Origin: a virus
Virus record (IMG/VR): IMGVR_UViG_3300019360_000149
Span: 1-37,810 of that record
Reading direction: 5' to 3' (one strand)
DNA length: 37,810 nt
The notes beneath the pieces were generated by a model that worked only from the letters and a program-made list of their open reading frames with translations, ran no database searches and was not told the origin of the DNA. Shown here in pieces: positions 4,059-34,028 of this stretch (positions are counted from its first letter, which is position 1; every line of letters begins with the position of its first letter). Position numbers and translations under genes: made by a program.

Positions 4059-4243
4059 AGGGGTGGATTGGCGTGGCACTCGATGGCATTGAATGTGCAA
4101 CTGCTGATTCGCGCGCCTGGAGGCGAGCCCAAGTCGGCGGAAAGGCCTCAGGCTCCTCCCCGGACGTGATGCCTTTGATCCACGTGGCCCGGCGTTCACC
4201 CCCTCGCGCCGGGCCATTTCATAGGGAGATCGGTCAGACATGA
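4055..4243 (+). CDS. 62-aa ORF bracketed by GTGA and ATGA overlaps
   Basis: This ORF starts at a GTG sharing bases with the preceding stop (GTGA at 4055) and ends at a TGA sharing bases with the methyltransferase start (ATGA at 4240). Such coupling on both sides is unlikely for a random open frame. The N terminus M-K-G-W-I-G-V-A-L-D-G-I recalls motif I of HAD-type hydrolases often found in phages (G-W-I-G-V-D-L-D-G-T). Here the first Asp is Ala and Thr is Ile, and nothing HAD-like follows. It may be a decayed HAD gene, or an unrelated small protein. The segment also contains a perfect 9-bp inverted repeat (4186-4194 with 4207-4215) and an imperfect one (4119-4129 with 4151-4159). The alternative is a non-coding leader. 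Confidence 0.45.
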   Translation: MKGWIGVALDGIECATADSRAWRRAQVGGKASGSSPDVMPLIHVARRSPPRAGPFHREIGQT

Positions 4244-5556
4244 GCAAGAAGGCGGCCGGCAAGGTCGCCATCGTCCATTGGCCTTTGGCGAAGCTGAAGG
4301 CCGATGCCGGCAATGCGCGCACCCATTCGCCTGAGCAGGTGAGGCAGATCGCCGCCAGCATCAAGGAATTCGGGTTCACCAATCCGATCCTGGCGAAGTC
4401 TGACGGCACGATCATCGCCGGCCATGGCCGCCTGCTCGCCGCTACGCGCCTCAAGCTCGACGAGGTGCCGGTCATCGTCCTCGACTGGCTGACCGATACG
4501 CAGGCGAAGGCGCTGCTGCTCGCCGACAACAAGCTGGCCGAGAATGCAGGGTGGGACGAGGAACTGCTCGCCCAAGCGATGCGCGAGCTCGATGAGGCGG
4601 ACTTCGACCTGGCTCTCACCGGATTCGACGACGACGAGATCAACGCGCTGCTGATGGACGCCACCAAGGGCGCCACAGATCCCGACGCGGTTCCGGAAAT
4701 GTGGGCGACGCCGGTTTCGCGCGCCGGCGACTGCTGGATACTGGGTCAGCATCGCGTGCTCTGCGGCGACGCCACGAATCCCGAGGACGTGAAGCGCGTG
4801 CTCAACGGTGTCTCGCCCATGCTCATGATCGGCGACCCGCCTTACGGCGTGAGCTATGATGCAAGCTGGCGCGATCGGGCGAATTTCTCTGGCAGCGGCA
4901 CGCGATCGACGGGCAAGGTCAAAGGTGATGATCAGGCCGACTGGACGAGGGCCTGGGATCTCTTCCCCGGCGATATCGCTTATGTCTGGCATGGTGAGCT
5001 GCAGGCGCCGGATCTCGCGCGTCAGCTGCAGGCGAGCCGCTTCATACTGCGCAATCTGATCGTCTGGCGGAGACCGCAATTCGTGGTGAGCAGGGGCAAT
5101 TATCACAGGCAGCACGAAACCTGCTGGTACGCTGTCCGCAAGAGCGCCACCGGGAACTGGAGCGGGGACCGCAAGCAATCGAATGTGTGGGACATCACCA
5201 ACAGCGCGGGCGGTGATGATACACAGACGGACCACTCCACACAGAAGCCAGTGGAGTGCATGCGCCGTCCAATGCTCAACAACTCCTCGCCCGGGCAGGC
5301 AATATATGACCCCTTCCTGGGCTCGGGCACAAGCGTCATCGCTGCGGAGATGGAGCGTCGCATCTGCCATGGGCTGGAGATCGATCCGCTCTATGTCGAT
5401 CTCATCGTGAGGAGATGGCAGGACTTCACGGGCAAGGAAGCCAGGCTCGAGCAGGACAAGCGCAGCTTCGCCGAGATCGTATCGGACCGTGCTGTCACTG
5501 CGGATGGTGCACCGTCGCAGAAGGTAAAGGTGCTGAAGAAGAGGAAGGCAGCATGA
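4240..5556 (+). CDS. ParB-domain DNA methyltransferase (N6-A/N4-C type)
   Basis: This is a 438-residue two-domain protein. Residues 10-105 are a ParB/sulfiredoxin-type domain, with N-A-R-T-H-S, the G-H-G-R box at 61-64 and A-D-N-K-L-A. Residues 160-405 are a DNA methylase of the N6_N4_Mtase family: catalytic motif D-P-P-Y at 199-202, H-S-T-Q-K-P-V-E at 332-339, and the SAM-binding D-P-F-L-G-S-G-T at 357-364. Motif IV before motif I indicates the beta-class order, as in CcrM. It probably methylates adenine (or N4-cytosine) on phage and host DNA. No restriction partner is adjacent, so it is an orphan enzyme. Target specificity cannot be read from sequence. Its co-occurrence with GcrA makes a GANTC-type or promoter-relevant target worth testing. 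Confidence 0.92.
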   Translation: MSKKAAGKVAIVHWPLAKLKADAGNARTHSPEQVRQIAASIKEFGFTNPILAKSDGTIIAGHGRLLAATRLKLDEVPVIVLDWLTDTQAKALLLADNKLAENAGWDEELLAQAMRELDEADFDLALTGFDDDEINALLMDATKGATDPDAVPEMWATPVSRAGDCWILGQHRVLCGDATNPEDVKRVLNGVSPMLMIGDPPYGVSYDASWRDRANFSGSGTRSTGKVKGDDQADWTRAWDLFPGDIAYVWHGELQAPDLARQLQASRFILRNLIVWRRPQFVVSRGNYHRQHETCWYAVRKSATGNWSGDRKQSNVWDITNSAGGDDTQTDHSTQKPVECMRRPMLNNSSPGQAIYDPFLGSGTSVIAAEMERRICHGLEIDPLYVDLIVRRWQDFTGKEARLEQDKRSFAEIVSDRAVTADGAPSQKVKVLKKRKAA

Positions 5557-19813: not shown

Positions 19814-20259
19814 CCTCACATTGGGCTGATAAGTATGTCGGCGTGCCGTACCGCGCCGAGGGCCGCGATCTCGGCGGGTGCGATTGCTGGGGCCTGGTGC
19901 GTCTGGTGATGCGCGACCAGGCCGGGCTCGATCTCGCCGCGTTCGAAACCGTGCGCGTGCGCAATGGCGCGCGCGTGATGGCCACGGTCCGCGAGGAGAT
20001 CGCCAGCGGCGAGTGGCTCGAAGTCCCGCGCGACGAGGCGCGCCTCTTCGATGTCGTCACGATGCGTTGCCATTTTCGCACGCGCGCGGGCTGGCAGGCC
20101 GGCGACATTCATATCGGCATCTGCGCCGGGACGAATGGGCTCGGGGTTAAGCATGTCCTGCATGTCGAGGAGCCGTGGAACGCGGTCTGCCTGCCATTCT
20201 CGCATCCGACGATCAGCTTCCGGCTCAAGGAAATCTACCGGCATAGGAGCCTCGCGTGA
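19810..20259 (+). CDS. NlpC/P60-type tail tip peptidase (gpK-like)
   Basis: The 149-residue protein has the phage NlpC/P60 signature. The nucleophile is most likely Cys26 in G-G-C-D-C-W-G-L-V. His101 lies in G-D-I-H-I-G-I and the last catalytic-type His is about 115-118 in K-H-V-L-H-V-E. It starts in an ATGA overlap at 19810 and its stop overlaps the tip gene. Such tail-tip peptidases cut the peptide stem of murein during DNA entry or act in tip assembly. Unlike lambda gpK, no JAMM domain is fused to it. Confidence 0.88.
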   Translation: MTSHWADKYVGVPYRAEGRDLGGCDCWGLVRLVMRDQAGLDLAAFETVRVRNGARVMATVREEIASGEWLEVPRDEARLFDVVTMRCHFRTRAGWQAGDIHIGICAGTNGLGVKHVLHVEEPWNAVCLPFSHPTISFRLKEIYRHRSLA

Positions 20260-23200
20260 AACGTACGACTTCGGTTCCGATCATATCCCGGCTCGAGCCC
20301 TTCAAGCCCGAGTGGACCTATGCCGTCCCGGAAGGCTTGACGCTGCTCGAGATCGTCGAGCGCGTGCCCAACCTGCCCGCCGCCTTCGTCCACCATGGCG
20401 AGGTCCTCGTCAACGGCAAGCGATGGCGCCGCGCTATGTGGAAAAGCGTCCGCCCTACGGCCATGGCCGTGGTGACGCTGCAGCTCATGCCCGGGATAGG
20501 AGGCGCCGGCGGCGGTGGGGGCGGCGGCGGTGGCCAGAAGAACGTCGCCCTCACCATGGCGGCGATCGTTATCCTTGCCGGCACGATCTTCATCGGCGCC
20601 GGAGGCATCGCCGCCCTGGCGGGCCTGCCCGCAACTTCGACCTGGGCCGCCGGCGGCCTCGGCGCGCAACTCGCCGCCGGCCTGTTCGGCGCCGCCGGGG
20701 CGTTCGCGCTCCAGGCGCTCGCCCCGCCGCCCTATTCGCCCAAGGCGCCGGCGACTACGGGCAGGGACAGCGGGTCCGATCCCTTGTCGCAGGCGGGGAT
20801 CACCGGCAACGGCGTCAAGATCGGCGATGAGCTGCCGGCGGTGCTCGGGCTGTTGCAGTATTCTCCGCCGCTTGGCAGCCCGTCTTTCACGACGCTCCAG
20901 AACGGCGTCGTCTATGCCCATGCGACCTACCTTCTCGCGGGCTATTACGACGTGAGCAATATCCTCCTCAACGGCGTGCCGATCGGCGAGTTCGCCACCG
21001 TCCAATATGAGGTACGGGACGGCGCCCCCGGCAACAGCCTCCTGACGCTCAACAACAAGACGTTCATCGAGAAGCGCAACCAGAATGCGCTGCTGACCAA
21101 TTTCGTGCTGGAGGGCGAGGACAGCAGAGGCAACAAGCTCGTCCACCAGTCCAACCCCGACCAGGATCTGCCACAATGGCAAGTGTTCAAGACGGCGGGC
21201 CCGGCAGACGAGATCCGCATCCGGATCTTCATCCCGGCGCTGCAATGGACGGATGACACCAATACGGTTCCGCCCGAGACCGGCGTCGTTCCGGTCAGAG
21301 TCGAGATCCGCGAGCGCGGCACGTTCACCTGGCTCAAGATGCCGGTCATTCACTTCAGGAGCCACAAGCTCAATCAACAGCTGCGGCAGGAGATCAGGCT
21401 GATCTGGGTCGCCGATCCGGGCGGCGCCCGCATCAATTTCAAGCGCGGCCTGCACACCTTCGGCGCCTATCACACGACGGGCGACGGGCAGGCGTTCGAA
21501 TACAATTCGGAGAGCTATTTCCTTCAGCCTGCGATCGTCGACCAGATTCCGGTGATGACGGCGGCGACCACCAGCGGCGTCACGATGTCGGCATCGAACC
21601 AGGTCGTCGGCAACGAAGCCTGGCGTGCCGGCGACAATAGCGCGCTCACAACCTATTGGATCGCCAGCAGCGCTTCGTTGCCGCAATGGAACAAGGTCGA
21701 TTTCGGGGCCGCCGGCGCGCGGATCATCAAGTCGATGATGATCTCGCCGAGGTTCGCGGACGATGGCGCGCCGGAAGATTTCACGGTCCAGGGATCGAAC
21801 GACAATGCGATCTTTGACGTGCTGCTGACGGTGGAGGGGTACACCCGCTGGAAGGATGACGATGAGCCCGATCCGGCAACCTTCCAGTTCGACACCTTTG
21901 GATCATATCGGTACTACCGGATTCACGTTACGAAGACCATCGACGGAGGTCCCGCCAATCTCCTCGACTGGCAATTGTTCCTGCACGACGCGCCCGGAAC
22001 GAGCGAGTTCCACGAGAACAACCCGGCCGACATCTTCGCTTCGAACTGCAATCTGCATGACGATGGGATAGACATCTTCCTTGACCCGGCGACCTTCCCG
22101 AAGGGCGAATATGAGGTCCGGGTCAAGCGCGGCCTGGGCGTCATCGAAAATCAGTTCAACGAGGAGCAGTACACCTATAGCGCCAGCGCCGTGAACGCGA
22201 ATTTCTTCGGCTATTACGACGACGCCGGCATCAAGAAAGTGCGCCAGACCCAAGCGACGGTCGCGAGCGAGACGTTCCTCGAGAGCTTCACCACGATCGA
22301 AAATGTCTACCCGTTCGATCCAAGCATCCACCAGAAGGGCGTAGCGATGATCACGCTGGTGGCGCCGAGCATGACCATCGAGAGCCTGTCGGCTTCGTTC
22401 CACAGCATCGTCCCGGTGTACCAGGACGGCACGTGGTCGACACTCGCTCCGTCGTCGAACCCGGCGGCGCTGTTCCGCCATGTCGCGCTGGGCAAGGAGA
22501 ATGTGAAGGCGCTACCCGGCGAGATCGTCGACGAGGAGAACCTGCAGGCTTTCTGGGCGAGATGCGTCGCGGCGGGCTTTGAATGCAATTTCGTCGCCGA
22601 CGGGATGTCGGCGGAGCAGATCCTGCAGGTCATCGCCGCCGCCGGCTGGGCAGTGCCGAAGCGCGCCGGGCTTTGGGGCGTCATGATGGAATATGACCGT
22701 TCCGGCGATGCGATCCAGCAGTTGTTCACTTCACGCAACTGCAAGTCCTATGGCCACAGCATCGATTTTCCCGACGCGATCCATGCCATCCGGGCGGAGT
22801 ATTCGAACGAGGACAACGACTACGCGCCGGACGAGGTCATCGTCTACGCGCCTGGCTACAATATCGACAACGCGGTCAATATTGTCGCGGTCAAGTATCT
22901 GGGGATCACCAATACCGACAAGGTAGCCGACCGGGCGCTGCTCGACATAAGGCAGATGATCTATCGCAGCGTGACATCGGAGATCGAGGTCCCGGCGGAA
23001 GGTATCTGCTCGGCCGCCGGCGATCTCGTCGGCCTAAATGACGACGTCCTCGTCAAACATCACGGTGCCTGCCTCATCGAGGCAGTCCTGCTGGACGGCG
23101 GCGGAAACATAACGGGCCTGGTGCTCGAGGCGGAGATCGACTTCGGCGCCGCCGCCGGCGAGATCGAGGAGCGCATGATGGCGGCGATCCGCACCATGCC

Positions 23201-23441
23201 GGCGGCGGGCCCGCCCGCCGTCATCATGGCCGAGATCGACGAGCAGACCGAAACCGACACGGTGACCTTCACCACGCCGATCCCGCCGGACGCCACGGTC
23301 AAGGCCGGCGGCCTGGTGGCCTTCGGCGTCTATGACCAGGTCGTCGTCCGCAAGCGCATCTTCGAGATCGCCCGGGGGCGCGGCAAGACCCACCGGCTGC
23401 GGCTCAAGGACGACGCCTCCGAGCTGATCCACGCCGCCTAA
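20256..23441 (+). CDS. Central tail tip protein (gpI/gpJ-like fusion) with discoidin-type insert
   Basis: The 1061-residue protein starts in an ATGA overlap. Residues 1-155 look like a gpI-type part: a beta-grasp-like start (P-E-G-L-T-L-L-E-I-V-E-R-V, H-G-E-V-L-V-N-G), a Gly run near 84-93 and a hydrophobic stretch (about 97-155). The gpJ-like tip body follows (G-S-D-P-L-S-Q-A-G-I-T-G-N-G-V-K-I-G, E-L-P-A-V-L-G). Residues about 450-577 form an F5/8 type C (discoidin-like) domain: N-E-A-W-R-A-G-D-N-S, T-Y-W-I-A-S, D-F-T-V-Q-G-S-N-D and Y-R-Y-Y-R-I-H-V-T. The C-terminal part has the J-type region (V-K-A-L-P-G-E-I-V-D). It should close the tail tube and start receptor contact. The inserted domain may bind carbohydrate. 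Confidence 0.88.
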   Translation: MKRTTSVPIISRLEPFKPEWTYAVPEGLTLLEIVERVPNLPAAFVHHGEVLVNGKRWRRAMWKSVRPTAMAVVTLQLMPGIGGAGGGGGGGGGQKNVALTMAAIVILAGTIFIGAGGIAALAGLPATSTWAAGGLGAQLAAGLFGAAGAFALQALAPPPYSPKAPATTGRDSGSDPLSQAGITGNGVKIGDELPAVLGLLQYSPPLGSPSFTTLQNGVVYAHATYLLAGYYDVSNILLNGVPIGEFATVQYEVRDGAPGNSLLTLNNKTFIEKRNQNALLTNFVLEGEDSRGNKLVHQSNPDQDLPQWQVFKTAGPADEIRIRIFIPALQWTDDTNTVPPETGVVPVRVEIRERGTFTWLKMPVIHFRSHKLNQQLRQEIRLIWVADPGGARINFKRGLHTFGAYHTTGDGQAFEYNSESYFLQPAIVDQIPVMTAATTSGVTMSASNQVVGNEAWRAGDNSALTTYWIASSASLPQWNKVDFGAAGARIIKSMMISPRFADDGAPEDFTVQGSNDNAIFDVLLTVEGYTRWKDDDEPDPATFQFDTFGSYRYYRIHVTKTIDGGPANLLDWQLFLHDAPGTSEFHENNPADIFASNCNLHDDGIDIFLDPATFPKGEYEVRVKRGLGVIENQFNEEQYTYSASAVNANFFGYYDDAGIKKVRQTQATVASETFLESFTTIENVYPFDPSIHQKGVAMITLVAPSMTIESLSASFHSIVPVYQDGTWSTLAPSSNPAALFRHVALGKENVKALPGEIVDEENLQAFWARCVAAGFECNFVADGMSAEQILQVIAAAGWAVPKRAGLWGVMMEYDRSGDAIQQLFTSRNCKSYGHSIDFPDAIHAIRAEYSNEDNDYAPDEVIVYAPGYNIDNAVNIVAVKYLGITNTDKVADRALLDIRQMIYRSVTSEIEVPAEGICSAAGDLVGLNDDVLVKHHGACLIEAVLLDGGGNITGLVLEAEIDFGAAAGEIEERMMAAIRTMPAAGPPAVIMAEIDEQTETDTVTFTTPIPPDATVKAGGLVAFGVYDQVVVRKRIFEIARGRGKTHRLRLKDDASELIHAA

Positions 23442-23465
23442 ATCCGAACCGAAAGAGGGACTGTC

Positions 23466-26400
23466 ATGATCCGTTCCTGCAAAGCGGTGCTCGCCGCTCT
23501 GTTGCTGCTGGTCCTCGCCCAGACCGCCGCCCACGCCACGGCGAGCGGCGCTACGCCGTGCAGCGGCGGCGGTTTCCAGATCTCGACGAACTGGCAGAAC
23601 AACACCTGCCCGGATGTCAATGAAGAGATGGCGAATGCCAATAACCGGGGCATCATCCGGCTGACCTCGGTCGCCGGCACGAACGACTACACGGCCAATG
23701 CCGCGCCCTTCGCGCTGACCGCCTATGTCGACGGCCAGCACTTCACCCTGAAGGTTCCGAACGCCAACACGACGACCGGCCGTTTGAACGTCAATGGCCT
23801 GGGCCTCAAGGCGATCGTGAAGCAGAACGGGACGGCGCTTTCGTCCGGCGACCTGGCCACGTCGACGATCTATCTCGTTCAATATGTCGGCGGCGCCGAT
23901 GATCAATTTAGGGTCATGGGGGCGGTCGGCACGCCTGGCGTCGATGACGACATTCCCGATGCCGGTTCGGACTATGCCAACCTCGTGGGCGGGACCGGGA
24001 TCGTCAATTCGCCGGTCGGCACAATCGCCTTCGACTTCAGCGACAAGGGCGCCAGCCCGGCGCTGTCGGTCGATCAGTGCGTCTTCACCTCCAACGCGAC
24101 GACCGCCGGCTATATCGTCTGCGAGGGCGATACCGCGGATACTTTCGAAAGCCGCATCGCCTTCGCCGATCCGACCGCCGATCGGCTGATGACGGTTCCC
24201 AACGCCAACTCAAATCCGGTCCAGCCGCTCACCTGCGGTGGCACCGACAAGATCTCGGGCATATCGTCCGCCGGCGTCGTCACCTGCGCGGCCGACCAGG
24301 TCGGCGGCGGCGTCTCCGATGCCGACTATGGCGATATCTCCGTCGTCGCCGGCGTCTGGACGATCGATGTCGGCGTCGTCACCTCGGGCAAGATCCTCGA
24401 CGGCACGATCGCCAATGGCGATCTCGCCAACATGGCAAATGCCACCTTCAAATGCCGCAACACGGCCGGCAGCGGCGCGCCCGAGGATTGCACGGCAAGC
24501 CAGGTGCGCAGCCTGCTTGCGCTCGTCATCGGCACCAATGTGCAGGCCTGGGACGCGGATCTGGATACCTGGGCGGGCGTGACGCCCTCGGCCAACGGCC
24601 AGTCGCTCGTTTCGGCGGCGAATTATGCCGCGATGCGCGCGCTGCTCGATCTCGAGGCGGGAACCGACTTCTATTCGATCGCCGCCGCCGATGCCGCGTT
24701 TCAACCTCTTGATAGCGATCTGACCACATGGGCAGGCGTGACGTCGTCGGCAAATGGGCGATCGCTGGTCTCGGCTGCGAACTATGCGGCGATGCGCGCG
24801 CTGCTCGATCTCGAAGCGGGAACCGACTTCAACGCCTTCAGCGCGCGCCTGGCTGACATTGCGGGCATCACCTGGAACCAAGGCGACATCCTCTATTACA
24901 ACGGGTCGAACCTCGTCGACCTCGGGCCTGGCACGAATGGTCAATTCCTGAAGACGCAAGGCGCCGGCGCTAATCCGGTTTGGGCCGATGCTCCTGGCGC
25001 TGGTGGAGGCGCTGACGTCTTCACCGATCTTAACGACGTTCCAGCGTCCTACAGTGGCGCGGGCGGCCGATGCGTCAAAGTTACCGCTGGCGAAGACGGC
25101 CTTGAATTCGTCGCTTGCGCGGGCGGCGGCAGCATGGACGACTTCACCTTGGCCGGCGACGCGGGAACGCCGCAGACGATCGCCGACGGCAATACCCTGA
25201 CCGTCGCGGGCAGCACGGGGGTTTCGACCGCGGCCGGCGCTACCGACACACTGACGATCACGCTCGACAGTGACCTTCAGTCGTGGGCCGGCGTCACGCG
25301 CGCGAGCGGCTTCGATACGTTCACGGCGACGCCCTCGAGCGGCAACTTTGCCTCGCTGGTTACCGGCGAAACGGGCTCCGGCGCGCTCGTCCTCGGCACC
25401 GATCCCGACATCTCGATTTCAGCCACGACCGAGAGCAACATTGAGGCGGCGATCGACACCTTGTCGAACCTGACGTCTATTCAGGGACGAACTATCACGC
25501 TCACTGACGACAATCTCGACGTCCTGGCGGGCTGGGATGACAGCGACGGCGCCTATGAAAGCTTGTCCCTCGCCGAAATCGCAACGGAAGCTTCACCGGC
25601 CGCCGGTGACTTCCTGCTGATCTATGGTGCTGAGGGCGACCTCAGAAAGGTCGATTGGTCGGGCCTTCCTGGTGGCGGGGGAGACTCGATTACTGTCAAC
25701 ACGACCGCTGTCACCGATCCTGATTTTGACAATGCTGCGCCGGCCGCACCAGCCGGCGGGTATAACGTCAAATGGCAAACCTCCTCGAACGACATGAGCG
25801 CCTACATCGATTTTACCGGCGCGACCGATCTCACCTCACCTGATGTTGCGGACTCAATCCTAGTCAATGACGACTCGGCGTCGGACGCAATCCGTGAGGT
25901 ATTGCTCTCAGATCTATTCAAGGTGACGAATGCCTTAACCGAGGACACAGCGCCGGCTGTCACCGCCGATTTCGTTCCGACCTACGACACCTCGGCGACA
26001 TCGGCGAAAAAGGTCCTGCTCTCGAGGATCGGCGTCGGCAAGACTGTAGTCCCGCTCCCGGCTGGATCCGGTACCACGCCATCCGGCGGCGGCATCGCCT
26101 CCTGCACGATGATCAATGCGTTCGACTCGGGCTCGAACGATATCTTCATGAAACAGTGCAGCTTCTCGGCCGGCACTGACAACGCCATCTACTACTACAT
26201 TCCAGCACCCAAGGCCGCGAATGAGACCGTCGACTGGACGGTTAGGGTCGACTGGACCTCAGCAACGACGACGGATGGATCGGACAACGTGATATGGACG
26301 GCTGCTGCCGTGTGCTGGTCGAATGATGACAGCCTCAACGGCAATGCATTCCCGACCGTCGACACCGTCACCGATACGCAAACCGCTGCCGGAGATTTCC

Positions 26401-26573
26401 TCTCGACTTCGGAAATCACGGCGATTACGCCCGCTGGCACCTGGGCAGAGAATGACGGCTGCGTTCTGAGGATTACGCGCGATGCCGATGCCGGCGGTGA
26501 CAACTTTAACGGCACGGCCGAGCTTTTGAATGTGATGCTCTACATCACTACCAACGCCAATACCGAGGATTGA
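23466..26573 (+). CDS. Large tail fibre/adsorption protein with N-terminal signal peptide
   Basis: The 1035-residue protein is Gly/Ala/Thr/Asp-rich and beta-dominated, typical of fibres. It has K-V-P-N-A-N-T-T-T-G-R-L-N-V-N-G-L-G near 95 and two copies of a 40-residue repeat around 363-455, with a third partial match near 600. Residues 1-24 are a Sec-type signal peptide: M-I-R-S-C-K, a Leu/Ala core, and A-H-A before the likely cut. Cys residues are more frequent than in cytoplasmic fibres (C32, C48 and pairs later), which suits an oxidising compartment. A ribosome site AAAGAGGGA precedes the start. Identity as a tail fibre rests on position after gpJ and on composition. An exported, cell-surface phage protein is the alternative. 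Confidence 0.7.
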   Translation: MIRSCKAVLAALLLLVLAQTAAHATASGATPCSGGGFQISTNWQNNTCPDVNEEMANANNRGIIRLTSVAGTNDYTANAAPFALTAYVDGQHFTLKVPNANTTTGRLNVNGLGLKAIVKQNGTALSSGDLATSTIYLVQYVGGADDQFRVMGAVGTPGVDDDIPDAGSDYANLVGGTGIVNSPVGTIAFDFSDKGASPALSVDQCVFTSNATTAGYIVCEGDTADTFESRIAFADPTADRLMTVPNANSNPVQPLTCGGTDKISGISSAGVVTCAADQVGGGVSDADYGDISVVAGVWTIDVGVVTSGKILDGTIANGDLANMANATFKCRNTAGSGAPEDCTASQVRSLLALVIGTNVQAWDADLDTWAGVTPSANGQSLVSAANYAAMRALLDLEAGTDFYSIAAADAAFQPLDSDLTTWAGVTSSANGRSLVSAANYAAMRALLDLEAGTDFNAFSARLADIAGITWNQGDILYYNGSNLVDLGPGTNGQFLKTQGAGANPVWADAPGAGGGADVFTDLNDVPASYSGAGGRCVKVTAGEDGLEFVACAGGGSMDDFTLAGDAGTPQTIADGNTLTVAGSTGVSTAAGATDTLTITLDSDLQSWAGVTRASGFDTFTATPSSGNFASLVTGETGSGALVLGTDPDISISATTESNIEAAIDTLSNLTSIQGRTITLTDDNLDVLAGWDDSDGAYESLSLAEIATEASPAAGDFLLIYGAEGDLRKVDWSGLPGGGGDSITVNTTAVTDPDFDNAAPAAPAGGYNVKWQTSSNDMSAYIDFTGATDLTSPDVADSILVNDDSASDAIREVLLSDLFKVTNALTEDTAPAVTADFVPTYDTSATSAKKVLLSRIGVGKTVVPLPAGSGTTPSGGGIASCTMINAFDSGSNDIFMKQCSFSAGTDNAIYYYIPAPKAANETVDWTVRVDWTSATTTDGSDNVIWTAAAVCWSNDDSLNGNAFPTVDTVTDTQTAAGDFLSTSEITAITPAGTWAENDGCVLRITRDADAGGDNFNGTAELLNVMLYITTNANTED
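24552..24830 (+). repeat. Two 120-bp repeats inside the tail fibre gene
   Basis: Unit 1 is 24552-24671 and unit 2 is 24711-24830, with a period of 159 bp. Both encode D-x-D-L-x-T-W-A-G-V-T followed by S-A-N-G-[QR]-S-L-V-S-A-A-N-Y and A-A-M-R-A-L-L-D-L-E. A shorter, diverged third match (D-S-D-L-Q-S-W-A-G-V-T) lies near 25266-25300. They look like duplicated fibre shaft or knob modules and could recombine. Confidence 0.85.
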
Positions 26574-26577
26574 TCCG

Positions 26578-27420
26578 ATGCAATTTGATCCTCGCCGATT
26601 TGTAAAGCTCGCCTCGGGCCTCGTGGTCCCGAAGCGGCCGGCCTTGTTCACCCCGAAACGCTTAGGGGGCCTTACCAGGCGTGCATTCCTGGCAGGCCTC
26701 GGTGCATCGATAATCACGCCCACGCCAGCGCTGGCGAATTTCAGCGCAGCGCCTGGCTTTGCCGTAGCATGCCTTCCGGTCTCGCTCACCTATGTCAGCA
26801 TCGTAGGCGACACAGCCAATGGGACCAACTATACATTCACGTCTCAAAGCTATGGCGCGGTAGTGCCAGCCGGCAATGCCCGTCATCTGCTCGCTTGCAT
26901 TTCTGGCGTCGCCAGCTCAACTGCCGGCGACATCACCTCGGCCACGATCTCTGCTAATGCCACCACCCGTGTCGCTTCGGCGGGCTCGGTGGGACGGCCG
27001 ATGGCCTGCTTTCTCCTGACAGACAATGCCCTGACATCTGGTCAAGTGGCTTGCGTCTTTGCTCAGACCCAAGTTCATGCGGCTTGCGCAGTTTTCCAGT
27101 TGGTCAATCCGATCAGCACGACCCCAACGAATACCTCGGCGGCCTCGGCTAATGCCACCTCGGTCAACACCACCCTAACAACCCCGCCCTGCGGTGTTGG
27201 CCTCGCGATGGCATCACCGAACGTACTCTCGGGCGCCCTAAGTTGGACCATCGATCTTGGGACGATCACCGAAGTTTATGATTTTAATGTTGACGGCGGA
27301 GCAGGGACGAATGTCGGCGGTGCTGTAACCGGGCCAGTCAACAATGAGCAGCGCACCGTCACGGTGACCCAGGTTGAAAGCGGCAACGTCATCCAAATAT
27401 TCACTGCTGGATGGAACTAG
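26578..27420 (+). CDS. Tail-region protein with a Tat-type signal peptide
   Basis: The 280-residue protein begins 4 bp after the fibre gene. After 31 residues comes L-T-R-R-A-F-L-A-G-L-G-A-S-I, a close match to the twin-arginine export motif (S/T-R-R-x-F-L-x). P-A-L-A-N follows as a likely signal peptidase site near residue 53. The mature part (about 227 residues) is Ser/Thr/Ala/Gly-rich, beta-type, with several Cys (V-A-C-L-P, L-L-A-C-I, A-C-F-L, V-A-C-V-F). It resembles phage adsorption domains only by composition. No family is recognised. GC content looks lower than in the structural genes. It is either an exported phage protein that alters the cell surface or a distal tail part. Confidence 0.7.
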   Translation: MQFDPRRFVKLASGLVVPKRPALFTPKRLGGLTRRAFLAGLGASIITPTPALANFSAAPGFAVACLPVSLTYVSIVGDTANGTNYTFTSQSYGAVVPAGNARHLLACISGVASSTAGDITSATISANATTRVASAGSVGRPMACFLLTDNALTSGQVACVFAQTQVHAACAVFQLVNPISTTPTNTSAASANATSVNTTLTTPPCGVGLAMASPNVLSGALSWTIDLGTITEVYDFNVDGGAGTNVGGAVTGPVNNEQRTVTVTQVESGNVIQIFTAGWN

Positions 27421-27433
27421 CAGGTGGCGGTCA

Positions 27434-27667
27434 CTAAAACTTCGGCGACGCGAGGCGTTCAACGGAGTCGCCCTCGACGTAGAGCACCCCATCCAGATCA
27501 AGAATCTTTTCCATGATGACGCGTACATCGGAGGCTGAAATATCCTGTTTCAGCCTGACAATAAGCGGTGGAAACCGCTCATCTTTTAGGTTCTTTGTCG
27601 TGCTCTTCCGCTCGCTGAGACTCCCCCTTTTGGTAGGAGTCTTTGCTTGGTGCTTGCGGATGTCCAT
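27434..27667 (-). CDS. Small minus-strand ORF, possible accessory gene
   Basis: The 77-residue reverse-strand ORF lies between two plus-strand late blocks. The first half is basic. The second half (P-P-L-I-V-R-L-K-Q-D-I-S-A-S-D-V-R-V-I-M-E-K-I-L, then D-G-V-L-Y-V-E-G) has a beta-alpha-beta rhythm like ACT or HMA ferredoxin-type folds, which favours real coding. A minus-strand promoter candidate lies about 40 bases upstream. No good ribosome binding site is visible before the ATG at 27667. An independently expressed accessory gene (moron) fits; function unknown. Confidence 0.45.
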   Translation of the reverse strand: MDIRKHQAKTPTKRGSLSERKSTTKNLKDERFPPLIVRLKQDISASDVRVIMEKILDLDGVLYVEGDSVERLASPKF

Positions 27668-27801
27668 GGTTTTGCCGCCCCAACAGACTGTGTCGCCGAC
27701 GACACGCTAGCGTCTTGCCAGGAGCCTTGTCAAATGAAGCGCAGCCCCCTCACTTTCCTGCTGCATTGCGACGCGGCTATGTCGCACCGCAATGACGCGC
27801 C
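27668..27801. other. Intergenic region between minus-strand ORF and lysis block
   Basis: This 134-bp gap separates divergent genes. It holds the minus-strand TTGACA candidate. No convincing plus-strand promoter or terminator is visible, although the following block would need one if it is transcribed apart from the tail genes. Confidence 0.5.
27704..27733 (-). promoter_or_regulatory. Candidate promoter for the minus-strand ORF
   Basis: On the minus strand a perfect TTGACA occupies 27733-27728. With an 18-base spacer it is followed by TAGCGT at 27709-27704, which matches the key -10 positions 1, 2 and 6. The -10 is weak. Confidence 0.4.
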
Positions 27802-28197: not shown

Positions 28198-28579
28198 CCT
28201 GGCTGCGCTCCTCAACAGATATGCCGGCGAGATCATCGCGACGATCCTCTCGCCCATCCTGCTGGGCCTGGTCGGCTACTGGAAGCTCAAGCGGCTCGGC
28301 GTCAATCGATCGAACATTGCCGAGATCGAGGACCGGGCAAAATTCCGCCAGTCGCTGCTCGATCGCATCACCCAGGTCGAGGCCGAGCTCAAGAATTCGC
28401 ACGCCCGCGAGCTCCAGCTCATGCAGCAGAACAACCTGCAGGCTCACCAGATCGGGCAGCTGCAGGGCGAGAACGACGCGCTGCGCGAGGACGTCAGGGA
28501 ACTGAAGGAGAAGCGCCGCGAGGACAAGCAGCGCATCCGCGAGCTCGAGGAGAAGACCAAGGGAATGAGGCTGCCATGA
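28184..28579 (+). CDS. Membrane-anchored coiled-coil protein (i-spanin-like or accessory)
   Basis: The 131-residue protein overlaps the preceding gene by 14 bases. One hydrophobic segment (I-I-A-T-I-L-S-P-I-L-L-G-L-V-G-Y-W) at about 17-33 is followed by an almost continuous charged coiled coil from 45 to 128 (E-A-E-L-K-N, Q-L-Q-G-E-N-D-A-L-R-E-D-V-R-E-L-K-E-K). This single-anchor plus coiled-coil layout matches i-spanins, which pair with a lipoprotein o-spanin. The o-spanin candidate here is 4 kb away, so the pairing is uncertain. Confidence 0.65.
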   Translation: MTATDLAALLNRYAGEIIATILSPILLGLVGYWKLKRLGVNRSNIAEIEDRAKFRQSLLDRITQVEAELKNSHARELQLMQQNNLQAHQIGQLQGENDALREDVRELKEKRREDKQRIRELEEKTKGMRLP

Positions 28580-28971
28580 AGTCGTTCCGCGGAGCGATCA
28601 TCATCCTGATCGCCGGCGTCCTGTTGCTGCTGCTTGCCGCCTGGCTGGCGGCGCCGGCGCGCGCGCATGACTGGTACTCCTCAAGCTCCGATCCGGTCTA
28701 CCAGTCCTCATGCTGCGGCGGGCATGACTGCGCCCCGGTCGATCCCGAATGGGTTTCGATCGAAGGCGACGGCTACCGGCTGCGCATGACGCTCGATCAG
28801 GCGCGCACCGTCAACAAGCAGGCTCAGGCGCCGGTCGATGCCCACATCCCCGGCAACCGCGTGCAGAGCCCGCCTAATGCCGATCATCTCTTCTATGCCT
28901 GCATCTATGACCGCGATCGCGAACGGCCGCGCCAGGGCGTGATCTGCTTCTTCGCAACCCCGACAATGTGA
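28576..28971 (+). CDS. Secreted Cys-rich protein of a Rhizobiales-type family
   Basis: The 131-residue protein starts in an ATGA overlap. Residues 5-30 are a signal peptide or anchor (I-I-I-L-I-A-G-V-L-L-L-L-L-A-A-W-L-A-A-P-A-R-A). The mature part starts H-D-W-Y-S-S and contains S-C-C-G-G-H-D-C-A-P-V, then Y-A-C-I and V-I-C-F-F. The H-x-W-Y plus S-C-C-x-G-x-D-C pattern belongs to a family of periplasmic proteins common in Rhizobiales chromosomes and phages, function unknown. Its place in the lysis block suggests an envelope role. Confidence 0.7.
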   Translation: MKSFRGAIIILIAGVLLLLLAAWLAAPARAHDWYSSSSDPVYQSSCCGGHDCAPVDPEWVSIEGDGYRLRMTLDQARTVNKQAQAPVDAHIPGNRVQSPPNADHLFYACIYDRDRERPRQGVICFFATPTM

Positions 28972-31498: not shown

Positions 31499-32071
31499 AT
31501 GTCTGGTACCAACCTGGGCGCCGCGGGCAGCGTCATGCTGCGCGTCGTCAAACTCTCCATCGCCGCCGCCATCGGTTTGGCCGTGGTCGGTGGCGCGCTC
31601 ATCTCGACGGCTATGGCGCAGACCGCGCCGGCGCCGGATACCACAGTCGATTTCACGCCAATCGTGAATGGCGTTGTTGCCACCGCCGGCGCCGCCTTGC
31701 TCGCGCTCGCGACCTGGATCGGCTGGTATGTGAAGAACTGGGTTGCCTCTAAAGTCGATCTCTCGACGACCCAGCTCGATGAGCAGCTGCAGCAGATGTA
31801 CAATGAGGCGGCGGCCCGCTCGATCGCCTACGCCGAGAGTGCCGTCAAAGGCGTGGTGCCCAAGGAGGTCGACGTCAGAAGCGCGTTCGTGGCCACCGCG
31901 GCGGAATACCTGCTGAAATTTTGGCCCGACCTGGTCGGCAAGCTCGGCCTCACGCCCGAGAAGATCCGCGACACGATCATCGCGCGGTTGCCGAGCGGCG
32001 TCATGACCGAGAAAGCCGATGCCATTGTCGTGGCCAAGGCGGCCGGCTCTGCGGCCGAAGCCAAGAAATGA
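31499..32071 (+). CDS. Membrane protein resembling LLH-family holins
   Basis: The 190-residue protein is preceded by TAGGAG. It has an N-terminal hydrophobic segment (about 16-38, ending S-T-A-M-A-Q like a signal cleavage site) and a second one (about 57-77). A long amphipathic helical region follows (L-D-E-Q-L-Q-Q-M-Y-N-E-A-A, V-R-S-A-F-V-A-T-A-A-E-Y-L-L). This pattern resembles phage holins of the LLH type. Size is larger than typical small holins. Its stop overlaps the next start. Confidence 0.6.
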   Translation: MSGTNLGAAGSVMLRVVKLSIAAAIGLAVVGGALISTAMAQTAPAPDTTVDFTPIVNGVVATAGAALLALATWIGWYVKNWVASKVDLSTTQLDEQLQQMYNEAAARSIAYAESAVKGVVPKEVDVRSAFVATAAEYLLKFWPDLVGKLGLTPEKIRDTIIARLPSGVMTEKADAIVVAKAAGSAAEAKK

Positions 32072-33089: not shown

Positions 33090-33344
33090 ATGCCCCGGAT
33101 ATGGTTCTCAAAGCCGCCCGTCTGCGTCATGGACCGGGCCAAGCCCGGCCTCGTGCGCCAGGTATCCTCCGTCGAAGCGGCGGCCGAGGAGCTTCTCAAA
33201 TGGCCGAACAGCCGGAAGCGCGACAAGGCGGCGACCCTCATCGCCGACGCCCATGCCGGCAAGGCCGACGTCGACCAGGCCAAGAAGGCCTTCGAGGCTG
33301 CGGCGAAGGAAGCGAAGGTCTGGGTGCCGTATCGCGGGCCCTAG
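33090..33344 (+). CDS. DUF982 family protein
   Basis: The 84-residue protein shows the DUF982 pattern: W-F-S-K-P-V-x-V near the start (here P-P-V-C-V), V-R-Q-V-S-S-V-E-A-A-A-E-E-L-L-x-W-P, A-A-T-L-I-A-D-A, A-K-K-A-F-E-A-A-A-K-E-A-x-V at the end. DUF982 is almost limited to Rhizobiales and is common on their chromosomes, plasmids and phages; function unknown. AGGG lies before the ATG. The stop shares CTAG with the stop of the convergent higA gene. Confidence 0.8.
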   Translation: MPRIWFSKPPVCVMDRAKPGLVRQVSSVEAAAEELLKWPNSRKRDKAATLIADAHAGKADVDQAKKAFEAAAKEAKVWVPYRGP

Positions 33345-33652
33345 GCCGCGGCCTTGGGCGTGGGGATCTTCGCCAACTCGCCGGCGAGCTTCTGCCGTGC
33401 GTCCCACAGGTCGACGGCCTGCTGCATGTTGAGCCAGACCTCGGCGCCATTGCCGCAGAACTTGCCGATCCTCACGGCCGCCTCGGGCGTGATCGACACT
33501 TGCTCGGCCAGGATCTTGCGCAGCATCTGAGGCGAGATGCCGAGATCCCGCGCGGCCTGAAGCGGCGACATCTTGAGCGCCGGCAGCACCGTATTCCTGA
33601 GGACGGCGCCGGGGTGCGGGGGGCGGATGGCCCGATGGGGTGTAGCGGTCAT
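33341..33652 (-). CDS. higA: HigA-type antitoxin
   Basis: The 103-residue reverse-strand protein is a HigA/XRE antitoxin. The pattern is H-P-G-A-V-L-R near 13-19, L-G-I-S-P-Q-M-L-R-K-I-L as the HTH (38-49), I-T-P-E-A-A-V-R-I-G-K, then W-L-N-M-Q-Q-A-x-D-L-W. A GAGGAGGG ribosome site precedes it, and it starts 13 bases after the toxin stop. It binds the toxin and probably represses the operon by binding the palindrome in its promoter. Confidence 0.93.
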   Translation of the reverse strand: MTATPHRAIRPPHPGAVLRNTVLPALKMSPLQAARDLGISPQMLRKILAEQVSITPEAAVRIGKFCGNGAEVWLNMQQAVDLWDARQKLAGELAKIPTPKAAA

Positions 33653-33665
33653 CTTGCGACCCTCC

Positions 33666-33944
33666 TCAATGATACTGCTCTAGGTCGACCTTGACGGCGT
33701 CGGCGCCGTCAAATTCGAAAGTTATGCGCCAAGGCCCGTTCACGGCGACACTGTAGCGCAGCGGCTTGAACTGCTTCAAGGCGTGATAGCCATAGCCCGG
33801 CAGGTCCATGGCGGCCGGCGTCGGGGCGGAATCGAGGAAGCCGAGGCGCTCCTTGATGCGATCGTGAAACTTGCTCTGGATTTTGTTGGTGCGGCCGGTC
33901 TCGAACAGTTCCTTGAGACCCTTGTGCTTCCAGCTCTTGATCAT
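33666..33944 (-). CDS. higB: HigB-type toxin (RelE superfamily)
   Basis: The 92-residue protein starts at 33944 with M-I-K-S-W-K-H-K-G-L-K-E-L-F-E, the usual HigB N terminus; a longer frame exists upstream but is not HigB-like. Further motifs: A-x-D-L-P-G-Y-G-Y-H-x-L (here M-D-L-P-G-Y-G-Y-H-A-L), R-Y-S-V-A-V-N-G-P-W-R-I-T-F-E-F and D-A-V-x-V-D-L-E-Q-Y-H. GGAGG lies upstream. HigB enzymes cut mRNA on the ribosome. The toxin gene comes first, the standard order for higBA. Confidence 0.93.
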   Translation of the reverse strand: MIKSWKHKGLKELFETGRTNKIQSKFHDRIKERLGFLDSAPTPAAMDLPGYGYHALKQFKPLRYSVAVNGPWRITFEFDGADAVKVDLEQYH

Positions 33945-33995
33945 GGCCTGCGGGCCTCCTGCCCGGTGCGGCGGGCCCGATGCCCATCCCGATGA

Positions 33996-34028
33996 CCTAA
34001 ATTTAGGACATGCGGCTTCGAATGTCAA
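33996..34028 (-). promoter_or_regulatory. higBA promoter with operator palindrome over the -10
   Basis: On the minus strand TTGACA (34028-34023), a 17-base spacer and TAAATT (34005-34000) form a good promoter. The -10 is inside a perfect 12-bp palindrome, CCTAAATTTAGG (33996-34007). This position suits autorepression by HigA. A related palindrome lies at 34093-34108. Confidence 0.75.

Follow-up and report, generated by a model that had tools for sequence, protein, structure and literature searches.

The window analysed herein is the whole of IMG/VR virus record IMGVR_UViG_3300019360_000149 (37,810 nucleotides, 37.8 kb), whose gene set comprises a lambda-type gpA terminase, a portal, an S49 protease, a decoration protein and an E-type capsid, followed by a tail block in which the tube, the tape measure, a DUF1833 gene, an NlpC/P60 gene (a weak match) and a J-like hub lie in that order. 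The GcrA family is alphaproteobacterial, and since the window encodes a regulator of this family (244-1047), the host of the virus is probably an alphaproteobacterium; the same phage also carries a ParB-N and N6_N4 DNA methylase fusion (4240-5556), and the two might interfere with host cell-cycle methylation. The hub (20256..23441, plus strand) was assigned as a tail hub or tip attachment protein of the lambda J type by a profile match to PDB, in which profile A2, with the window hub included, retrieved Tip attachment protein J at 6e-9. It has an F5/8 type C domain inserted and is without the C-terminal extension present in relatives. The gene for the 1035-aa tail-fibre protein P0002 (23466..26573, plus strand) follows after 24 bp, and 4 bp beyond its stop at 26573 comes the ATG (26578) of the gene under study, P0001, which ends with its stop at 27420 and encodes 280 aa. 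A Shine-Dalgarno-like GAGGA (26565..26569, plus strand), read directly, sits 8 nt 5' of this ATG. Downstream of P0001 lie a 77-aa minus-strand ORF and then lysis-type genes, which agrees with the placing of P0001 at the end of the tail operon in an earlier note on this DNA. A scan of 23300-27800 found no sigma-70-like promoter upstream of P0002 or P0001, its single match (at 27374) being equal to the shuffled expectation of 1.0. Beyond this block, two further short genes with Sec-like leaders lie in the lysis region (28576-28971, with no Pfam match, and 31499-32071), and a HigA/HigB-like toxin-antitoxin pair (HigB-like toxin 3.7e-11, HTH_3 5.7e-5) occupies 33341-33652 and 33666-34028 on the minus strand.

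Residues 33-40 of P0001 read T-R-R-A-F-L-A-G, with TRRAFL (residues 33-38) at 26674-26691 on the plus strand, and are followed by an uncharged stretch, LGASIITPTP, and then by A-L-A and N54. This gives a predicted twin-arginine leader of residues 1-53 (26578..26736, plus strand; predicted cut ALA|N) ahead of a mature protein of 227 aa (26737..27420, plus strand), which has six cysteines and is beta-rich by eye. The n-region is basic and long (32 residues ahead of T33), and the S/T-R-R-x-F-L motif, a moderately hydrophobic h-region and an A-x-A site are all present, as judged, like every leader prediction herein, by our own rules and inspection by eye. A strict form of the Tat pattern was adopted because matches to a looser one (12/1487 genes) took in plainly cytoplasmic-looking proteins (L136, L109, L003 -10). 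When residues 1-60 of P0001 were shuffled 200,000 times, the strict pattern arose 93 times; it is rare among the 3012 predicted genes across all loci, where it was found only in P0001, in L147 (14682-15551) and in one gene of L237, the last match being biased because that locus was retrieved with a Tat-like pattern. Both strict-Tat genes outside L237 lie shortly 3' of a hub. The clear twin-arginine signal that the earlier note saw in 26578-27420 is thus borne out, as is its placing of the gene 4 bp after another export-type protein, given the clear Sec-type leader of P0002.

Searches of phages, IMG/VR, plasmids, 397 genomes of one order, PDB, Pfam, PHROGs and NCBIfam found no homologue of P0001; Pfam returned no family for P0001 or P0002 at E values up to 1, no outer-membrane protein family matched P0001, and a direct reading found neither a lipobox nor a membrane-anchor feature. 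The single-sequence AlphaFold model (pLDDT 34) had no usable fold. Several candidate relatives were rejected: genome matches in L225 and L227 were weak, with no phage gene beneath either; phmmer with mature P0001 did not reach a leaderless, beta-rich gene of L087 (6697-7371) considered as a counterpart; and a search for the SGLVVP-like N-terminal peptide returned, apart from four spurious ORFs, only P0001 itself, in the window and in L001, a copy of the window. P0001 has no fibre homology and is by sequence a neighbour of the Sec-leader fibre class, not a member. The missing phage homologue would suit a passenger derived from a host Tat substrate and functionally unrelated to P0002, but a host homologue is missing as well (one match in the 397 genomes, that of L227, overlies other-strand genes resembling murein synthesis genes), and the 4-bp spacing, together with a position equivalent to that of the Tat-leader genes in L105 and L147, makes such an origin very improbable.

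P0002 begins with a clear Sec-type signal peptide, MIRSCKAVLAALLLLVLAQTAAHA (residues 1-24, 23466..23537, plus strand), with a cut AHA|T after residue 24 and another possible site earlier, after A18. Beyond the leader it has 14 cysteines and a body of recognisable tail-fibre repeats, of which 'WDADLDTWAG' is present in 80 kept viral loci (of 135 encoding a relative); proteins carrying it are mostly leaderless, the leader-bearing exceptions being the near-copies L007-L009 and L012. Among the sequences compared, a stretch of 50 residues that includes the pair CRNTAGSGAPEDC is found with both cysteines elsewhere only in L168 and in the second fibre of Bradyrhizobium phage ppBdUSDA122-1, both leader-bearing (L168 by eye). 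P0002 therefore shows fibre homology, a Sec leader and hub adjacency, the three features that define the class. Tandem Sec-leader fibre-like genes also lie in L007 (7845-9500) and L012 (7707-11688), between capsid and connector genes and not after a hub.

Genes around J-like hubs were surveyed with one pipeline throughout in the best 80 of 279 loci from IMG/VR, in 55 loci from bacterial genomes (enriched for leaders because they were seeded mostly with leader-bearing hubs) and in five named phages, leaving out seven of the 80 IMG/VR loci without a callable hub (L093, L106, L145, L149, L157, L163, L165) and excluding genes below 150 aa from the position and hub-tree tallies. Sec-like leaders were found in 26 of 121 clusters at genes 1-3 after the hub vs 13 of 261 for the preceding genes, up to 12 per hub (Fisher 2e-6; Fisher values assume independent clusters, which these are not fully, most cysteine pairs falling in one hub group), and most of the 13 pre-hub clusters were false by eye. 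By position after the hub the counts were 10/51 (first), 8/38 (second) and 8/32 (third), where a given cluster may be counted for two or more positions. Of the 86 distinct hubs, 19 are followed within two genes by a Sec-like leader, and on the tree of these 86 hubs, from which the Nitrobacter copy L169 had been left out as a near-duplicate, those 19 need seven state changes (shuffled mean 17). Thirteen of them belong to a single starred group of 14 (Bradyrhizobiaceae, Bosea, Devosia), and those outside it, the window included, are scattered, with the deepest branches unsure; a joining of the window and L220 was flagged as long-branch and set aside. The pattern suggests that fibre genes right after the hub have repeatedly gained Sec leaders, with several origins and one stable Bradyrhizobium/Nitrobacter/Bosea/Devosia group. 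The two export-type proteins that the earlier note placed in the adsorption region are accordingly both present in the window and recurrent in the hub loci of other phages.

Positional analogues of P0001 with RR occur in L105 and L147, although the searches made gave no sequence match between P0001 and either Tat protein. In L105 the genes after the hub encode in turn a small protein with a Sec leader, a Sec fibre whose repeat resembles that of P0002, a Tat-leader protein (Laminin_G_3 at 0.0014, a weak match that falls short of the curated cut-off) and another Sec protein. In L147 the hub is followed by a leaderless gene, a Sec-like gene and, in third place, the Tat-leader gene. The pairing of Sec and Tat proteins, for which the earlier note knew no described case, thus recurs as an order in L105, L147 too has its Tat gene downstream of the hub, and exported proteins beside J are as such already known from lambda Lom. 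Two further genes were observed: a 92-aa gene upstream of the hub in Jiella endophytica (L186 8475) has a Tat-like start, and EBPR siphovirus 2 gp70 (L228 8589-9752) has a domain common to virion proteins of 64 other phage records, ahead of which lies an extension of ~80 residues with a Tat/Sec-like start, outside the listed matches.

Small genes with Tat-like N-termini near terminase/head genes in L236 and L237 indicate that phage proteins other than adhesins can also have Tat-like starts. Together with the start of gp70 and the unusually long n-region of P0001, they would be consistent with leaders that do not export but are hydrophobic N-termini for tail or virion attachment, or tolerated by-products, on cytoplasmic proteins that assemble normally. 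We consider this improbable, since leader sequences diverge among homologues and the mature start is conserved (alignments A3, A4), Sec and Tat types both occur, leaderless homologues begin at the mature boundary, and a cysteine pair tracks the leader. The leaderless fibres of L251 and L252, which share the N-terminal domain of leader-bearing fibres (L251 also the Collar domain), start at MSQGSTVLPTTGVF where relatives read leader|AQSSLSLPTTGVF, and are without the cysteine pair; a second contrast is that of L095, with a leader, vs L137 and L229, without. The pair, SCNxG...GQCWxD in leader-bearing proteins, stands where others have ordinary residues (xHxG...GTxWxD), and both cysteines were found in 10 of 16 leader-bearing clusters and 0 of 33 leaderless ones, a lone cysteine in none, with L168_2 reassigned by eye from leaderless to leader-bearing (without this the counts are 9/15 and 1/34). 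Four of the 53 motif clusters had been dropped as regex mis-hits (L105_2, window_1, L164, L175_3), and L095, where the regex had matched the wrong place, was scored from its sequence as leader-bearing without the pair. The pair is absent from the remaining 6 of 16 leader-bearing clusters, and L134 is without both cysteines, its pairless first gene sitting within a cluster scored as pair-bearing.

Among cluster representatives with cysteine (genes of at least 200 aa), the total cysteine number was even in 15 of 17 with a leader vs 18 of 41 without one. Hubs of leader-bearing phages are also somewhat richer in cysteine (7.3 per 1000 vs 5.2 in others), so the excess is partly background, and raw cysteine density was for this reason judged weak evidence. 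In a low-confidence model (50) of the L003 fibre the pair positions adjoin short strands (63-65 and 81-84) in a hairpin-like arrangement; the best Foldseek matches of this model include fibres and tailspikes, all with low TM-scores. Counting against the cysteine argument, virion proteins can become disulphide-bonded with no export step, as described for the capsid protein and gp48 of JBD30, in a text that mentions no export in the parts available (PMC11445458). Loss of dsbA had partial effects on Klebsiella phages that the available text ascribes to receptors (PMC13412088).

The leader-bearing proteins can be related to tail fibres through the closest isolate, ppBdUSDA122-1, in which two leader-bearing genes (WAX24264, WAX24263) occupy the fibre slot after the hub. 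The second of these contains a Collar domain by Pfam (2.9e-10) and gave ten matches to PHROGs, several of which carry the name tail fiber; the leader-bearing fibre of L095 likewise has a Collar domain and PHROG matches. No other fibre candidate is found among the 62 annotated features of ppBdUSDA122-1. Its host forms tailed siphophage particles by electron microscopy (PMC10127595, where 'proteom' is absent from the main text as available). Its second fibre shares the cysteine-pair repeat with P0002, whereas both of its leaders are Sec-like and neither protein matched P0001. Tail collar fibres in general (PF07484; PHROG tail fiber) have the slot after a J-like hub, the repeats and the collar C-terminus in common with several leader-bearing relatives, but the usual members compared have no leader, and P0001 and P0002 have no Pfam Collar match. 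A further leader-bearing fibre-like family was seen in the Bradyrhizobium family (L253 1495-2544), recognised by its match to the C-terminal portion of fibre alignment A3.

Exported proteins need not join virions, and could instead be secreted or surface-held adhesins that cover the receptors of the dying cell, its debris or lysogens, sparing progeny wasted adsorption or excluding related phages. The window hub's own F5/8 type C domain could serve as a binding tip, and because receptor binding can be done by a J-like hub alone, an additional fibre might not be needed. The exported-type fibre-like pairs of L007 and L012 are a counterpoint to virion joining and keep free adhesins in play because they sit inside the head block. 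In lambda, the exported Lom is encoded between J and the tail fibres and is, like P0001, a signal-peptide protein encoded just after the tip protein (PMC12309495); Lom is, however, a beta-barrel outer-membrane protein, whereas P0001 has a Tat leader and no Pfam match. Set against these points, the leader-bearing genes fill the slot of ordinary fibres and are homologous to them, collar-domain ones included, ppBdUSDA122-1 has no fibre gene besides them, and the genes in the window have no promoter of their own and P0001 neither lipobox nor anchor, so that we find free adhesins rather unlikely, and prefer joining to the virion because the leader-bearing proteins replace ordinary fibres.

The earlier note had offered superinfection exclusion, receptor masking or post-export tail assembly as envelope roles. 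The last of these fits best because P0002 has relatives that occupy the fibre slot and can be recognised as tail fibres, while for exclusion and masking the late operon without a promoter of its own, lipobox or family match gave no positive evidence. Lipoprotein superinfection exclusion of the T5 Llp type involves a lipobox with a cysteine at the cut, where P0001 reads ALA|N. Virion attachment at the hub has a parallel in siphophage JBD30, whose receptor-binding protein gp54 sits on the baseplate hub gp53 (the numbers are consecutive), a hub-borne arrangement as proposed here, although 'signal peptide' is absent from the text as available (PMC11445458).

The simplest account of the sequence patterns is that export leaders have been added to phage adhesion proteins, whose mature forms adapt to an oxidising compartment. 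Adhesion proteins encoded directly after a lambda-J-like hub (fibres, jelly-roll/LamG-like partners) would gain removable export leaders; the host's Tat system would then carry P0001, and Sec would carry P0002, across the inner membrane, the mature parts would fold in the periplasm, where cysteine pairs, if present, would form disulphides, and lysis would mix the exported proteins with cytoplasm-assembled tails, to which they would most likely attach at the tip as receptor-binding parts. The leaders probably work, and the exported fibres may well form disulphides and end up on virions. P0001 appears to belong functionally with the fibre P0002, a link drawn from position, leader and six cysteines because P0001 has no homologue or fold. 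Tat exports already folded proteins, which sits awkwardly with a later oxidation of these cysteines. For P0001 as a small adhesin-like protein sent via Tat beside a Sec fibre, both of an exported adhesion class likely joining the tail tip, we judge the case evenly balanced. More tentatively, the receptor-binding apparatus may be of two compartments, with heads and tails made in the cytoplasm and Sec/Tat-exported fibre and adhesin subunits undergoing oxidation and folding in the periplasm, to be attached to the tail tip only at lysis, the leader being swappable and gained several times.

Tails of tailed phages are taken to assemble in the cytoplasm, and the full-text literature, in which subscription journals are thinly covered, yielded no published account of exported (Sec/Tat), disulphide or signal-peptide collar fibres. 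Our results suggest that fibre assembly in some phages is completed in the host envelope and not within the cell, and the known lysogen B. diazoefficiens USDA 122 permits a direct test of a periplasmic fibre route. If this route is real, disulphides could harden the fibres, unattached fibres would already occupy the envelope ahead of lysis, with consequences for re-adsorption and exclusion, and the host machinery for export and disulphide formation would act as phage assembly factors for a whole group of alphaproteobacterial phages.
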